Assembly: GCA_018266075.1 (NCBI GenBank) | Contig: JAFEBB010000012.1 | Location: 1-64,000 of the forward strand | Origin: Deltaproteobacteria bacterium | GTDB lineage: Bacteria; Myxococcota; Myxococcia; Myxococcales; SZAS-1 | Reading direction: 5' to 3' | Length of the DNA stretch: 64,000 nucleotides | In this document: positions 53,974-59,453 of the stretch, piece after piece | Layout of the letters: each line of letters begins with the position of its first letter | Position numbering within the stretch: the stretch's first letter is position 1 | Program-made: the position numbers and the translations under genes | Notes under the pieces: model-generated | What the model saw: the letters and a program-made list of their open reading frames with translations, nothing else | Told to the model about the DNA's origin: nothing | Databases searched by the model: none

Positions 53974-54951
53974 CTATGCCGGCGGCCCGATGAGGTGCAT
54001 GGCGATCGCTGCGGCGGAGAGCGAGGCCACGGCCAACCAGAGCAGCAGCCCCTGCACGAGCGGCCGCACGCCCACCGACCTGAGCGCGGCGGGCGAGAGG
54101 TTCACGCCGATGACGAAGAGGGTGAGCACCATCAGCCGGCGCGCGAGCGAGGCCACCACGTCTCCCGCGGGGCGAAGGGCGGGCACCCACGTCACCAGCG
54201 CCGCTGCCAGGAGGAAGCCGAGGATGAACCAGGGGCGCGTGGCGCGTCCGGTCGCGCGGGCCTCGCCCGAGCGCGCGGTCCACGCCGCCAGGCCCACCGT
54301 GAGGGGGATGATCCAAAGTGCCCGGGCGAGCTTCACCGTGGTCGCCAGCTCCAGGGCGCGCGGGCCATATCCCATGGCCGCGCCCACCACCGAGCTCGTG
54401 TCGTGAATGGCCAGCGCGGCCCAGAGCCCGAACTGCGACTCCGAGAGCCCGAGCCCGTGGCCAATGCCGGGAAAGAGCAGGAGCGCGGCGGCGTTGAGCA
54501 GAAAGACCGTGCCCAGGGCCACCGACGCCTCGCGCTCCTCGGCCCGCACCACCGGCACCGCCGCGGCGATGGCGCTTCCGCCGCAGATCGCGGTGCCGAT
54601 GCTGATGAGCAATCCGGTCTTGCCCTGCACGCCGAGCAGGCGCGCCAGGAGCAGCCCCAGGGCCAGGGCCGCGGCGATGCTGATCGCCGTGGCGCCCAGG
54701 CCCTGAAGGCCGGCCCGCGCCACCGCGCGGAGGTCCATGCCTGCACCCAGGCCCACCACGCTCAGGGCGAGCATGCGGTGGGGCAGCTTGCGGGTGACGG
54801 CCGCGTGGGGGTTGCCGACGAGCAGGGCCAGCGCGCAGCCGCCCACGAGGGCCAAGCCACCCGAGGCGCCCGGCAGCAAGCAGAGCAGGGCCCCGAGCGG
54901 CACCAGCCACCGGCCCAGTGCTTCGCGTCCTGGAGAAGAGACCGCAACCAT
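53974..54951 (-). CDS. YeiH-family putative sulfate/sulfonate-linked permease
   Basis: The 325-residue membrane protein shows the YeiH/PF03601 pattern: LPHRMLALSVVGLGAGMDL, GTAICGGSAIAAAVPVV, AALAIHDTSSVVGAAMGYG and LATTVKLARALWIIP. It has about ten transmembrane helices. Members are called putative sulfate exporters; the transported solute has not been firmly shown. I used ATG 54951. It lies 60 nt downstream of the CnoX-like gene start on the same strand, reading toward it. Confidence 0.9.
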   Translation of the reverse strand: MVAVSSPGREALGRWLVPLGALLCLLPGASGGLALVGGCALALLVGNPHAAVTRKLPHRMLALSVVGLGAGMDLRAVARAGLQGLGATAISIAAALALGLLLARLLGVQGKTGLLISIGTAICGGSAIAAAVPVVRAEEREASVALGTVFLLNAAALLLFPGIGHGLGLSESQFGLWAALAIHDTSSVVGAAMGYGPRALELATTVKLARALWIIPLTVGLAAWTARSGEARATGRATRPWFILGFLLAAALVTWVPALRPAGDVVASLARRLMVLTLFVIGVNLSPAALRSVGVRPLVQGLLLWLAVASLSAAAIAMHLIGPPA

Positions 54952-55019
54952 CTTCGTGTTGGCCACTCCCGTCGTCAGGCACGGGCGGGCCGCTTTCATG
55001 CAGCCGGGAGGCGCCGGCG

Positions 55020-55181
55020 TCAACGCCCGCGGGGAGAGGGAGGGGGCGAGGTCGCGCCCTGAGCCTGGCGACACCTGCACCGCTCCGCAGGCGGCACGCG
55101 GGCGAGCGCCTGCTCGATGTGGGCGCCACAGCCGGCCCACGTCGGCTTGCCACAGCTGGGACAACGGACTTGTGCGCACAT
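55020..55181 (-). CDS. Small Cys-rich protein with CGKPTWAGCG motif (copy 2)
   Basis: The 53-residue frame reads CPSCGKPTWAGCGAHIEQAL, then VPPAERCRCRQ and a basic tail. It matches copy 1 (49095..49262) along the core, differing at a few positions. It lies upstream of the YeiH-like gene on the same strand, with a 68-nt gap, and 65 nt after the stop of the next gene. Two copies in one stress island suggest both are used. Confidence 0.82.
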   Translation of the reverse strand: MCAQVRCPSCGKPTWAGCGAHIEQALARVPPAERCRCRQAQGATSPPPSPRGR

Positions 55182-55246
55182 CGGCGGCTCTCCTGGAGCG
55201 GACCTTCGTGAGAGCCAGCCGCGTGGAATTCGATTCGCGGGCCGCG

Positions 55247-55696
55247 CTACTGCCCACGGCGGCGCCAGGCGGACCAGAGCGGCGTCCCATCGGGCTCGCG
55301 GAGCTTGAGCACGTCGTCGCCGCGCTGCACCTCCGTGGCGATGACTGAGGGCGTCTTGTCGATGGTGACCTTGGAGCCCGTCACCCGGATGGTCTCGTTG
55401 GCCTTGAGTTGAAGCTCCTGGTTCTCGATGAACCAGCTCGGCCCGAGGTGCACGTCGAAGTTGCCTTCGGCGGTCTTGAGCGTCACGTGGGTCCCGGTCA
55501 TGTTCATCCCGCGGTGGGGGACCTTCCGGACCTCGGTGATCGTGCCCTCGAGGGTGGTCACCGTCTTGGGGTCGAAGTACTGCATGTACATGGCGCCGGG
55601 ACCGCGACCGCCTCGACCACCACCAGGGGGCCCCATCTGTGCGGCCGCCGAGAGCGGGAGCAGGGCGAGAAGGGCAATGGACCAGGTACGCAGCAT
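55247..55696 (-). CDS. Small exported OB-fold-like protein
   Basis: ATG 55696 with GGAGG upstream gives 149 residues and a signal peptide cleaved near SAAAQ. A Gly-rich turn precedes a beta-rich domain (VTTLEGTITEVRKV, GTHVTLKTAEGNFDVHLGPSWF, LKANETIRVTGSKV). This resembles the periplasmic bacterial OB-fold type; the ligand is unknown. The end is strongly basic. Confidence 0.8.
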   Translation of the reverse strand: MLRTWSIALLALLPLSAAAQMGPPGGGRGGRGPGAMYMQYFDPKTVTTLEGTITEVRKVPHRGMNMTGTHVTLKTAEGNFDVHLGPSWFIENQELQLKANETIRVTGSKVTIDKTPSVIATEVQRGDDVLKLREPDGTPLWSAWRRRGQ

Positions 55697-55942
55697 GGCG
55701 TCCTCCAGGAAGATGGATTGGACCTCGGCCACCCGAAGAGCATCCGCTGTGCCAGCCTGCGGACCTGTCGGACAGCCGCGAGGTCGCTGGTGCCACGCGC
55801 TGCCGGCGCGCACGGCATGCGCGGTCCGGGTCGCACCACGCAACGTTCACGTCCAGAGGGCGTGCGGCCTGGCGAATCGAAATCGCACGGACCTGGCTCT
55901 GACCTGGCATTGCTGCAGCGGCATTCGTGTTAGCGGGGAGTC

Positions 55943-56290
55943 ATGAACGAGAACTGGATCTTCTACGCGGTCGTGGTGGGCATCTTCGTGGCCTTCACGG
56001 TCTTCAAGCGCCTCGGCCAGATCGGCGGCGAGCGCGCGCATGCGCTCGTGCAGTCGGGCGCCAAGCTGGTGGACGTGCGGACGCCCAGCGAGTTCCAGGC
56101 CGGGCACATCCCCGGCGCGGTGAACGTGCCGCTGCAGGAGCTCGGCTCCCGCGCGGGTTCGCTCGGGGAGAAGACGCGCCCCGTCGTGCTCTACTGCGCC
56201 AGCGGCGCGCGCAGCGCCATGGCGCGCTCGAGGCTCAAGGGCCTGGGCTTCACCCAGGTCTTCAACCTCGGCGCGATGAGCCGCTGGTAG
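55943..56290 (+). CDS. Membrane-anchored rhodanese-domain sulfurtransferase
   Basis: The 115-residue protein has one N-terminal transmembrane helix (FYAVVVGIFVAFTVF). A single rhodanese domain follows: VDVRTPSEFQAGHIPGAVNVP and catalytic Cys85 with loop CASGARS (Arg90). It would transfer sulfane sulfur from a persulfide to an acceptor at the membrane. It is co-located with two DUF2892 proteins; in YgaP both domains are one protein. Confidence 0.93.
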   Translation: MNENWIFYAVVVGIFVAFTVFKRLGQIGGERAHALVQSGAKLVDVRTPSEFQAGHIPGAVNVPLQELGSRAGSLGEKTRPVVLYCASGARSAMARSRLKGLGFTQVFNLGAMSRW

Positions 56291-56351: not shown

Positions 56352-57497
56352 TCACATGAAGTTGCGCGTGTGCAGCGACGAGAGCGCGGCCGCGTCGTCG
56401 CTCGTGAAGCCGAGCCGCTGCAGGCGCTGACGCCGTCCAGCGTCCATGTCTGCGACGAGCGAGACCACGGCCGCGTGACCTTGTCGCAGCGCCTGCGGCT
56501 CCCACGATCCCGCCGCGAGCAGCACGAGCGCGTCGAAGACCTCGGCGTTGAGCCCGGCGGTGTTCGCGAGCGCGGCGTGTCGCCGCTCGACCGCAGCCGC
56601 GAGCTTCTCTCGCAGCGACGGCTCCTGCTCGAGGTGCTGCCCCAGATGCGCGAGGCCGAACGCCACATGCCGCGCTTCGTCCTGCCCCGCGAGCCTCGCC
56701 ACCGCGCGCGTGCACGCATCCGGCGCGTGATCGCGGATGAACGCGAGCAGCGAGAGAAAGCTCCCTTCACCGAGCACCGAGAGCAGAAAGCTGGCGATGG
56801 CGAAGTCCGGCTCGTCGAAGAGCGTGGCGAGCGACGCCTGGCCGCCCACCGTCGAGAGCCCGAGCTCGTTGCGCCGCAGCCGCGCCCGCCTCGTGAAGAC
56901 CTCGATGTGCCGCGCTTCGTCGGCGGCCTGGATGGCGAGCAGCTGCATCACCTCGCGAAAGTGCGGATGCAGCTTCGAGAGGAATCGGGTGGGCACGAGC
57001 AGCGCCGCCGTCTCGTTCTCGATGAGGTAGGTCATCACCTGCACGACCGCGTCTTCGACCTCGGGCGGATGCGTGACCGGCGCGTCCCACGGAATGGCGG
57101 TCTGGGGATCCCACTGCGCGGCGGCGGCTTGCGCGTAGAGCCGCGCGGCGTCGTCGGCCCAGAGCTCACGCTTGTTCACGAGCGCGAGGTCGAGCACGGG
57201 CACGCCGGCTTCCACGAGCGCGCCACGCGCGGCGAGTCCCCACGTCTTCGGCGCGCGCTCGGACGGCGCGTCGATTTGGCCTGCGCGCTCGGCGCCGACG
57301 CGACGATCGTGCGGCCCTCGCGTGACGACGTTTCCTGCGCACGCGTGCCCCTTCGCGCGGCACCAGGCGGGCAAGTCGACGGCGAGCGTCGGCGCGGTTC
57401 CGACCACGCGAACCTCGGCCGCGCTCGCGAGCGCCCGCGCGACGAGCAGGTGCCCGCCCTCGTCGAAGCCGAGGTCGCCGAGGTCCACGGTGGTCAT
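56352..57497 (-). CDS. Ferritin-like diiron protein, possible oxygenase
   Basis: The 381-residue protein starts at ATG 57497, overlapping the PhnD-like stop codon. It has the two helix pairs of a diiron site: ENETAALLV with ADEARHIEVF, and EGSFLSLLA with QDEARHVAFG, giving two ExxH motifs. These are the ligand patterns of ferritin-like oxidases such as AurF-type or R2-like enzymes. The first 110 residues are an unrecognised Ala/Arg-rich domain (VDLPAWCRAKG, ALVEAGVPVLDLALVN). Confidence 0.82.
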   Translation of the reverse strand: MTTVDLGDLGFDEGGHLLVARALASAAEVRVVGTAPTLAVDLPAWCRAKGHACAGNVVTRGPHDRRVGAERAGQIDAPSERAPKTWGLAARGALVEAGVPVLDLALVNKRELWADDAARLYAQAAAAQWDPQTAIPWDAPVTHPPEVEDAVVQVMTYLIENETAALLVPTRFLSKLHPHFREVMQLLAIQAADEARHIEVFTRRARLRRNELGLSTVGGQASLATLFDEPDFAIASFLLSVLGEGSFLSLLAFIRDHAPDACTRAVARLAGQDEARHVAFGLAHLGQHLEQEPSLREKLAAAVERRHAALANTAGLNAEVFDALVLLAAGSWEPQALRQGHAAVVSLVADMDAGRRQRLQRLGFTSDDAAALSSLHTRNFM

Positions 57498-58327
57498 CGC
57501 ACGGCCAGCCAAGGGTCGAGCGTGTGGAACCGCTCCACGGCACGCTCGAGCAACGCGTAGCCCTTGGTGCGACCGGGCAGCCAGGCCTTGAGCCCTTCGA
57601 GATCGAGCAGCGGCCTGACCTGAGGGTCGTCGTACGACATGCCGAGCAGGAGCTCGCGGAAGCGCTGGGTCTCGGGCGGACCGCCGTCGAGCACGGTCAT
57701 GTTGCAGTGATCGTAGAGCCCGGTCTGGTGAAGCACGCGCGTCGCATTTGGCGCGAGCAGCCCTTCGCGCGCGAACGCGAGCCGGTTGCCGTCGATGAGG
57801 CACGCCGCGTCGACCTTGCCCGCGAGCAGCGCCTTCACCGCGTCGCGCTCGCCGCCGATGTGATCGCCGTGCTTGCCGAGCAGCACGTCATGGCGCTGTA
57901 CCTCGACGTCGCGACCTGGCTCGACTCCCGCGTCGGAGAGCGCCAGCAGCGGGATGAGCGTGGCCTGGGGCGAGTCCGCCGCGCCGACGCCGATTCGCTT
58001 TCCGCGCAAGTCGGCGATCGATTTCACCGGCGAGTCTGCGCGCACGAGGATGACGCTCGTGAGGTCGCGATCGGTGTCGCGCATGGCGATGGCCTGCGCG
58101 GTGCGGCCGTGCTTCTTCGCGAGCCGCTCGACTTGAATCCACGCGAGCGGGGAGTTCCACGCCACGTGCACGTCGCCGCGGAGGTGCGCGTCCACCTGGC
58201 GCTCGTAGCTCGTGTAGAGCACGTAGTCGAAGCTCAGGCCGCGCTCGGCGAACCAGGCGCGAAAGCCGTCCCAGATGGTGACCACTTTGGCGTCGTAGGC
58301 GACGGCTCCAAGGATGAAGTCGCTCAT
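57494..58327 (-). CDS. PhnD/NMT1-like binding-protein domain, no signal peptide
   Basis: The 277-residue protein follows the phosphonate/ABC binding protein fold: DFILGAVAYDAKVVTIWDGF, HVAWNSPLAWIQVER, SIADLRGKRIGVG, QATLIPLLAL and AACLIDGNRLAF. Relatives are periplasmic, but here the start is MSDFILG with no signal sequence, so it may act in the cytosol. Its gene overlaps the diiron gene by ATGA and follows the flavoprotein gene after 7 nt. Ligand unknown. Confidence 0.8.
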   Translation of the reverse strand: MSDFILGAVAYDAKVVTIWDGFRAWFAERGLSFDYVLYTSYERQVDAHLRGDVHVAWNSPLAWIQVERLAKKHGRTAQAIAMRDTDRDLTSVILVRADSPVKSIADLRGKRIGVGAADSPQATLIPLLALSDAGVEPGRDVEVQRHDVLLGKHGDHIGGERDAVKALLAGKVDAACLIDGNRLAFAREGLLAPNATRVLHQTGLYDHCNMTVLDGGPPETQRFRELLLGMSYDDPQVRPLLDLEGLKAWLPGRTKGYALLERAVERFHTLDPWLAVR

Positions 58328-58334
58328 GGCTGCC

Positions 58335-59453
58335 TCAGAAGAGCGGCAATCCGCAGACGGCCTTCCCGATGAAGTCGTACAGCACGTCGGTGGTCGGACC
58401 CATCACCAGCGCCGCGCGTGCGTCGCGGAAGATGCGCTCCACGCCGGCGCCGTCCTTCCGGAACGCCGCGCCGCCGCCCACGCGCATGGCCAGGTCCGTC
58501 ACCTCGGCGGAGGCCTCACCCGCCGCGGCCTTGCTCTCCAGCACGCGCAGCATGGTGTCCGGACGGCTCGACGCGATCGCCGCGAGCGCGTCGGCGTTGA
58601 GCGCCTTGGTCTGGTCGGTCTTGATGCGCATGCGCGCGATGAAGGCGCGCGCGGTCGGCAGGTCGGCGATGGAGCTGCCCGCGTGTTGGAACGACGTGCC
58701 CGACGCGTGCTTCGCCGTCCGCTGCACCGCCGCTTCCATCAAGCCCGCGGACACGTTCGCGGAAAGCACGTTGAACCAGGGCAGCACCACGCCCATCATG
58801 ATCCCGAAGCCTGCGCCGTCGCCGCCGAGGCGATTCGCGGCGGGGATCTTCGCGGCCTCCGCGGTCACCGGCGCCGAGTCGTTGCCGTTGAGGCCGATGC
58901 CGCTGAACGTCCCGTCGACACGAAGGCCCGCGGTGTTGCGCGGCACGAACCAGAGCGTGGAGAGCTCGCTGCCCGCGGTGGGCTTGCTCGACCACACGTA
59001 GCTGTCGGCGTGGTGCGCCGAGGTGACGAAGCTCTTCTTGGCGGAGACTTTCACGTCGCTGCCGTCGACGGTCGCCGTGCCCAGCGCGGCCCAGAAGTGG
59101 CTGCGCGAGCCGGCCTCGGAGAAGGCGAGGGTGGTGAGGTGCTTGCCCGCGGCGATGGCCTGGCGCGTGTCGAGCGAGCCGTGCGCCTCGATGACCGCGG
59201 TGCCGCAGTAGTGCATGCAGAGGACCATGGCCGTGGAGCCGCACTCGCGCGCGAGCCGCTCGACGACGACGGTGGCCTCCGCCAGGCCCTTGCCCTGACC
59301 GCCGACGTCCTTGCTGCTCACCAGGCCGAGGAGGCCGGCGGCGCGGAGCGCGTCGATAGACCGGGTGGGAAACTCGCCGCGATCGACCTCGGCGGCGTGG
59401 CTGGCGACGACGGCGGCGACAGACTCGAGCTGCTTCTCGAACTCGTTCGACAT
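58335..59453 (-). CDS. Acyl-CoA dehydrogenase-like flavoprotein
   Basis: ATG 59453 gives 372 residues; a GGAG site is inside a hairpin upstream. The sequence has ACAD features: RAAGLLGLVSSKDVGGQGKG, TAMVLCMHYCG, LAFSEAGSRSHFW, SAKKSFVTSAHHADSYVWSS, and AMRVGGGAAFRKDGAGVERIFRDARAA. The subgroup includes DszC/SfnC-type FMN monooxygenases for sulfur or nitrogen substrates as well as dehydrogenases. The order in the operon is flavoprotein, binding protein, diiron protein. Confidence 0.85.
   Translation of the reverse strand: MSNEFEKQLESVAAVVASHAAEVDRGEFPTRSIDALRAAGLLGLVSSKDVGGQGKGLAEATVVVERLARECGSTAMVLCMHYCGTAVIEAHGSLDTRQAIAAGKHLTTLAFSEAGSRSHFWAALGTATVDGSDVKVSAKKSFVTSAHHADSYVWSSKPTAGSELSTLWFVPRNTAGLRVDGTFSGIGLNGNDSAPVTAEAAKIPAANRLGGDGAGFGIMMGVVLPWFNVLSANVSAGLMEAAVQRTAKHASGTSFQHAGSSIADLPTARAFIARMRIKTDQTKALNADALAAIASSRPDTMLRVLESKAAAGEASAEVTDLAMRVGGGAAFRKDGAGVERIFRDARAALVMGPTTDVLYDFIGKAVCGLPLF

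Follow-up and report, generated by a model that had tools for sequence, protein, structure and literature searches.

What a three-gene operon does, when its products fit no standard pathway, is the question raised by positions 59453–56352 of the minus strand of a Myxococcota contig (JAFEBB010000012.1, positions 1 to 64,000, assigned to a deltaproteobacterium of the SZAS-1 lineage); "the window" below is this whole 64,000-nucleotide stretch. A sequence-only reading of the locus had described a flavoprotein resembling acyl-CoA dehydrogenases (ACADs), a PhnD-fold protein lacking a signal peptide and a ferritin-like protein, and had considered a small oxidative route on a phosphonate, sulfonate or nitro substrate. 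We addressed the question by comparing the trio across genomes, and the result that is new here is a tie to selenium, an element toward which the genomic context points and which was absent from that reading. The explanation we find most plausible, while stopping short of calling it probable, is that the trio forms one conserved cytosolic module that mobilises selenium by C–H oxidation upstream of SelD.

A conserved three-gene unit

The trio begins and ends exactly where the sequence-only reading had placed it, and the tight junctions were confirmed. The gene for the ACAD-like flavoprotein (58335–59453, minus strand; 372 aa) is separated by a 7-nt gap (58334–58328) from that for the PhnD/PtxB-fold receptor-like protein (57494–58327, minus strand; 277 aa), whose stop codon overlaps the start of the ferritin-like gene (56352–57497, minus strand; 381 aa) in an ATGA at 57497–57494. 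Using only the PhnD-like protein to scan genomes, we fetched 80 loci, and nearly all of them carried the ACAD, PhnD-like and ferritin-like genes in the same order. Because these loci were found through the middle protein only, the association of the three genes is not chance, and the co-occurrence on which the sequence-only reading had staked its grouping was borne out. Carriers belong to the Myxococcota, Planctomycetota, Acidobacteriota, Actinomycetota, Chloroflexota and Rokubacteria, with a patchy spread (7 of 195 Myxococcota genomes have the unit). No further neighbour was conserved across the 80 loci; a "MauG-like" cluster of 39 genes from 29 loci, considered as a conserved fourth gene, was discarded when nearly all its members proved to be antisense open reading frames of the trio.

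Some loci depart from this plan. Four from Streptomyces (L058, L061, L063 and L068) have the receptor and diiron genes with no adjacent ACAD gene, and the flavoprotein there may have its gene at another site or may not be needed. In a proteobacterial locus (L066) no third gene adjoins the ACAD–receptor pair, and a CoA-transferase family III-like gene comes next.

Association with selenium genes

The trio lay within 13 kb of selD in 5 of 49 genomes, where 0.2 were expected (p about 2e-6); all five are actinomycetes, and one plasmid shows such clustering besides. The order in Microtetraspora (L074) is selD-ACAD-PhnD-diiron-selA, and genes for SenA, SenB and SelD stand beside the trio in three diiron-type loci, from Actinomadura, Amycolatopsis and a metagenome-assembled genome of the Pseudonocardiales. 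The Amycolatopsis array (G219) runs contiguously trio-selD-senB-senA in a genome that has SelD and lacks SelA. On a Miltoncostaea plasmid selB-selA-selD lie about 6 kb from ACAD-PhnD, with a radical S-adenosylmethionine (SAM) gene of the Rv1681 family between. The genome G401 has the order trio-NifS-formate dehydrogenase (FDH)-selA-selB-selD, and its FDH reading frame is interrupted where a selenocysteine codon would fit; NifS-like genes are also close to the trio in L083 and L115. Two genes considered as SenA, one for EgtB beside the trio in L057 and one for an FGE-sulfatase in L072, were set aside when family scans showed otherwise.

The arrangement in G401, where FDH genes adjoin the trio, invites the view that the trio serves the maturation of FDH that contains selenocysteine or molybdenum, as does a molybdopterin-type oxidoreductase that sequence inspection placed beside the trio in G514. 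We consider this very unlikely, since the Amycolatopsis genome keeps its trio-selD-senB-senA array without SelA and since FDH was absent from the examined neighbourhoods in Microtetraspora, Actinomadura and the Pseudonocardiales.

Across whole genomes, SelD was present in 47 of 49 carriers and SelA in 38 of 40. Carriers are of two types, in which the third gene encodes either the diiron protein or a radical SAM protein. Within a sample of 346 Actinomycetes all 5 diiron-type carriers, one of them the seed, had SelD, against 26% (87/331) of non-carriers; when these were pooled with further fetched loci the count was 14 of 15 diiron-type carriers in this class (Fisher p about 2e-7). Radical-SAM-type Actinomycetes had SelD in 5 of 10 cases against the same 26% (p = 0.10). 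Narrower links to single selenium traits did not hold up: SelU, and with it selenouridine, was found in just 3 of 40 genomes, and SenB exceeded its cut-off in just 4 of 40, which disposed of a tie to selenoneine only.

The tie to SelD could also reflect shared lifestyle and gene transfer, with the module oxidising an ordinary organosulfur or other organic compound. The relatives of the ACAD-like protein include DszC, SfnB and 3-sulfinopropanoyl-CoA desulfinase, a rhodanese gene lies near the window trio, and radical-SAM carriers without SelD exist. Yet several distinct arrangements abut selD, selA, senA or senB, far over the chance rate, and genes for sulfonates or sulfones were missing from the annotated neighbours, so that we hold this explanation to be fairly unlikely.

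The three proteins

The second protein has the expected periplasmic-binding-protein (PBP) fold, as judged from Pfam (Phosphonate-bd, 5.4e-33), an AlphaFold2 (AF2) model with a predicted local distance difference test score (pLDDT) of 96.7, and Foldseek, in which the nearest structures were PhnD, PtxB, HtxB, AioX and ArrX. Its N-terminus reads MSDFILGAVAYD, and the first beta-strand of the model starts at residue 4; no signal sequence was found by inspection, in line with the sequence-only reading. The unit likewise contains no transporter gene, neither permease nor ATPase of the ABC type, and no transporter is common to the loci. PtxB and PhnD bind their anions through an STS-H motif (PMC5700983). 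The STS of this motif aligns to S119-P120-Q121 in the window receptor, where the motif is absent, and among diiron-type homologues the proline is kept in 87 of 89 and the glutamine in 89 of 89. These data bear directly on the proposal of phosphonate, sulfonate or nitro oxidation. The oxidative part of that proposal remained the natural reading, given a flavoprotein beside an O2-type diiron protein, and the PhnD/PtxB fold, an AurF-like signal in the iron protein and the lack of an ABC transporter, which implies a cytosolic binder, would all suit it. Its phosphonate part was not supported, with S-P-Q in place of STS; the genes cluster with selenium genes instead, and the annotated neighbours of the unit include no genes for phosphonate, sulfonate or nitro compounds. 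We rank oxidation of such a compound as the least likely explanation of those considered, and a highly improbable one.

Other receptor residues are strictly kept. H153, D155, E160, H207, C208, E244 and W249 are invariant in 89 diiron-type and 9 mycobacterial-type (radical SAM) sequences, the His207-Cys208 pair being encoded at 57704–57709 (minus strand), and R83, D84, D86 and D118 are likewise invariant and common to both third-gene types. This sharing suggests, as far as sequence conservation can, that the diiron and radical-SAM types bind one and the same ligand.

Pfam (Acyl-CoA_dh N, M and C domains) and alignment confirmed that the flavoprotein belongs to the three-domain ACAD fold family, as the sequence-only reading had it. 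Judged from the alignment it is not a standard acyl-CoA dehydrogenase, because the catalytic glutamate of butyryl-CoA dehydrogenase (5ol2_C) aligns to Gly352 (codon at 58398–58400, minus strand; IYEGTSEV versus VMGPTTDV) and the position of this SCAD/MCAD-type glutamate is alanine, glycine or serine in 91 of 91 homologues.

In the AF2 model of the iron protein (pLDDT 95) a beta-alpha-beta-alpha-beta-beta domain at the N-terminus precedes a helical bundle. The first of these, residues 1–60 (57318–57497, minus strand), is a TusA-like domain that the sequence-only reading had missed; Pfam TusA matched 15 of 15 homologues scanned as isolated N-domains (best 1.3e-7), and the CPxP cysteine of TusA is absent, with GFDEGGH or a similar sequence in its place. 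The two ExxH pairs reported earlier were found at E194-H197 (56907–56918, minus strand) and E274-H277 (56667–56678, minus strand). Together with E162 of helix 1 (57012–57014, minus strand), or E160, and with E244 of helix 3 (56766–56768, minus strand), both candidate ligands, they make up a full predicted diiron set of four carboxylates and two histidines. None of E160, E162, E194, H197, E244, E274 and H277 varies among 56 aligned homologues, so that the ligand conservation on which the sequence-only reading had made its case depend was also found. The protein exceeded no Pfam or NCBIfam cut-off (AurF, 21.8 versus 29.6 bits; R2lox models, 16–19 versus 194–315 bits), and its Foldseek neighbours R2lox, aldehyde-deformylating oxygenase and VlmB are all O2-activating dimetal proteins.

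Replacement of the third gene

The best NCBIfam matches of the first two window proteins are the families of Mycobacterium tuberculosis Rv1679 (FadE16; NF049984, E = 1.7e-118) and Rv1680 (NF049985, E = 1.8e-67). Because both matches fall below the family cut-offs (396 versus 600 bits and 228 versus 400 bits), the window proteins are, on these scores, homologous members of a sister group or distinct subgroup. In the 10 Actinomycetes genomes of the sample with a mycobacterial-kind receptor (9 over the Rv1680 cut-off) the third gene encodes a radical SAM protein of the Rv1681 family; in the remaining 5 carriers it encodes the diiron protein. A radical SAM gene also takes the place of the diiron gene in two Chloroflexota loci, of which L086 keeps only a truncated remnant. 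At least two swaps between diiron and radical SAM proteins are needed to explain the receptor tree, and the diiron protein and the mycobacterial radical SAM proteins have N-terminal domains that resemble each other (hhalign probability 87%).

Several observations concern the radical-SAM type. A DoxX-like gene flanks essentially all of its units. In two loci of the Ktedonobacterales (L076 and L086) the ACAD–receptor pair persists, the radical SAM gene is gone or cut short by stop codons, and the genomes still have SelD and SelA. The units L121, L125, L129 and in part L135 have genes for a nucleoside phosphorylase, a sugar epimerase and two glycosyltransferase-like proteins (GT2 and DUF2064/TIGR04282-like). 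Arsenosugar biosynthesis, suggested by DUF2064/GT2 near some radical-SAM loci (TIGR04282/TIGR04283), was rejected, as scores were below cut-off and the genes are absent from the diiron type. On a plasmid of Mycolicibacterium vanbaalenii (L136, 6324–17059) the unit stands among genes for deiodinase-like, AhpD/CMD, CcdA, DsbF-like and TrsS-like radical SAM proteins, and several of these neighbours have selenoprotein relatives.

Adjacency to selD alone cannot tell supply from use, and the trio might make a small sulfur- or selenium-containing molecule or cofactor (a thio or seleno compound, or a carrier) instead of supplying selenium. The PhnD-fold protein would then be an enzyme like MqnA and MqnD, the PBP-fold enzymes of the futalosine pathway, its diiron or radical SAM partner would carry out C–H activation, and selenophosphate or a persulfide would be the chalcogen donor, so that some mycobacteria could run on sulfur. 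The many invariant polar receptor residues common to both types are more reminiscent of catalysis than of plain ligand binding, the nucleoside and sugar genes that Rv1681-type loci may carry would fit, and carriers without SelD would be accounted for. The diiron type, however, is without such extra genes, and neither MqnA nor MqnD was among the 50 best fold matches of the receptor. We regard this explanation as unlikely, though a serious contender.

A possible route from organic selenium to SelD

The trio accompanies selenocysteine in most genomes and selenoneine alone in the Amycolatopsis genome; therefore any trait that uses SelD suffices, and a supply role before SelD is the simplest reading. 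C–H activation is suggested because a diiron or radical SAM enzyme pairs with the flavoprotein. We infer that the ligand bears selenium, that the module stands upstream of SelD and that the chemistry is of the C–H/C–Se kind. The PhnD-fold protein would hold a small ligand in a pocket probably lined by the invariant histidine, cysteine and acidic residues, and the flavoprotein, its ACAD base lost, would act with the TusA-like/diiron or TusA-like/radical SAM protein in a C–H-activating oxidation of the held ligand. Selenium would thereby be freed, most likely from a small organoselenium (or mixed sulfur/selenium) compound, and would enter the selenophosphate pathway through SelD and end in selenocysteine, selenoneine or both. 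We put forward more tentatively still, as a somewhat doubtful extension, that the module in its interchangeable diiron and radical SAM forms is a dedicated, self-contained organic-selenium route to SelD, distinct from sulfate or selenite reduction and from delivery by cysteine desulfurase, and that it is a relict or uses sulfur in mycobacteria including M. tuberculosis.

We were concerned by several points that weigh against selenium supply. No sequence feature proves a selenium ligand. The chief difficulty is that five of the 10 radical-SAM-type Actinomycetes, and one diiron carrier, Saccharothrix (L083/G234), which also lacks SelA, are without SelD; selenophosphate therefore cannot be a strict requirement of the chemistry. 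Physical clusters occur in Actinomycetota only, and the window's own genome has SelD and SelA on other contigs (C92 and C33), away from the trio. Co-occurrence with SelD in Myxococcota and Planctomycetota is weak evidence because SelD is common there anyway (78% and 67% of genomes, against 28% in the Actinomycetes sample), and our p-values are optimistic, since the genomes are related and the statistics ignore relatedness.

Near the operon, at 53977–56290, the window carries genes for a YeiH-type Cons_hypoth698 membrane protein and a thioredoxin-TPR protein (both minus strand) and for the rhodanese (plus strand), a possible sulfur-redox setting that other loci do not keep. No RNA element was found in a search near the operon.

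Significance and comparison with known systems

How bacteria acquire selenium and hand it over to SelD is still open, and the trio would be a directly testable candidate. A 2022 review knows of no high-affinity transport system for selenium (PMC9312934), and screens made earlier proposed YedE, YedF, DUF3343 and a LysR regulator for selenium and not this trio (PMC5322559). The searched passages of these two sources and of a further selenium-gene survey (PMC5029168) do not mention it. No described system with its composition was found, and the existing family names are placeholders; as far as literature and family comparisons go, the sequence-only reading was right to match it to no standard pathway. 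This widely conserved, uncharacterised unit may be a missing step in bacterial selenium acquisition or handling. If so, M. tuberculosis Rv1679–Rv1681, to which no paper that we found in the open literature assigns a function, would gain a first clue to their role, and the swap would be a further example in which a radical SAM enzyme takes over from a diiron enzyme while the partners stay the same.

The closest known system is this M. tuberculosis set, Rv1679 (FadE16)-Rv1680-Rv1681 (MoeX) (NF049984, NF049985 and NF049973), in which the first two genes are homologous to those of the window, adjacent and in the same order, whereas the third is a radical SAM gene and not a diiron gene, and a DoxX-like gene accompanies the mycobacterial type.

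The swap described here bears a likeness to the pairs AcsF/BchE and HemF/HemN, in which a radical SAM enzyme stands in for an O2-using one at a single step, with the difference that both replacements here carry a similar accessory domain. The periplasmic oxyanion binders PtxB, PhnD, AioX and ArrX share the clamshell fold of the window receptor at about 15–22% identity, but the latter is cytosolic, has lost STS-H, has an invariant His-Cys and acidic residues, and belongs to a unit without a transporter or sensor partner. R2lox, aldehyde-deformylating oxygenase, VlmB and AurF have the helical bundle, two ExxH pairs and O2-type ligand set of the window iron protein, to which they are only distantly similar, at query TM-scores of about 0.4–0.5 and 14–21% identity; the iron protein alone has the extra TusA-like domain at the N-terminus and a conserved LHTxNFM tail at the C-terminus. 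Finally, the TusA/SirA-like domain of YedF (PMC5322559) combines, as here, a TusA fold with a link to selenium genes, whereas the window domain lacks the CPxP cysteine and a DsrE domain and is fused, within this family of units, to a diiron or radical SAM domain.

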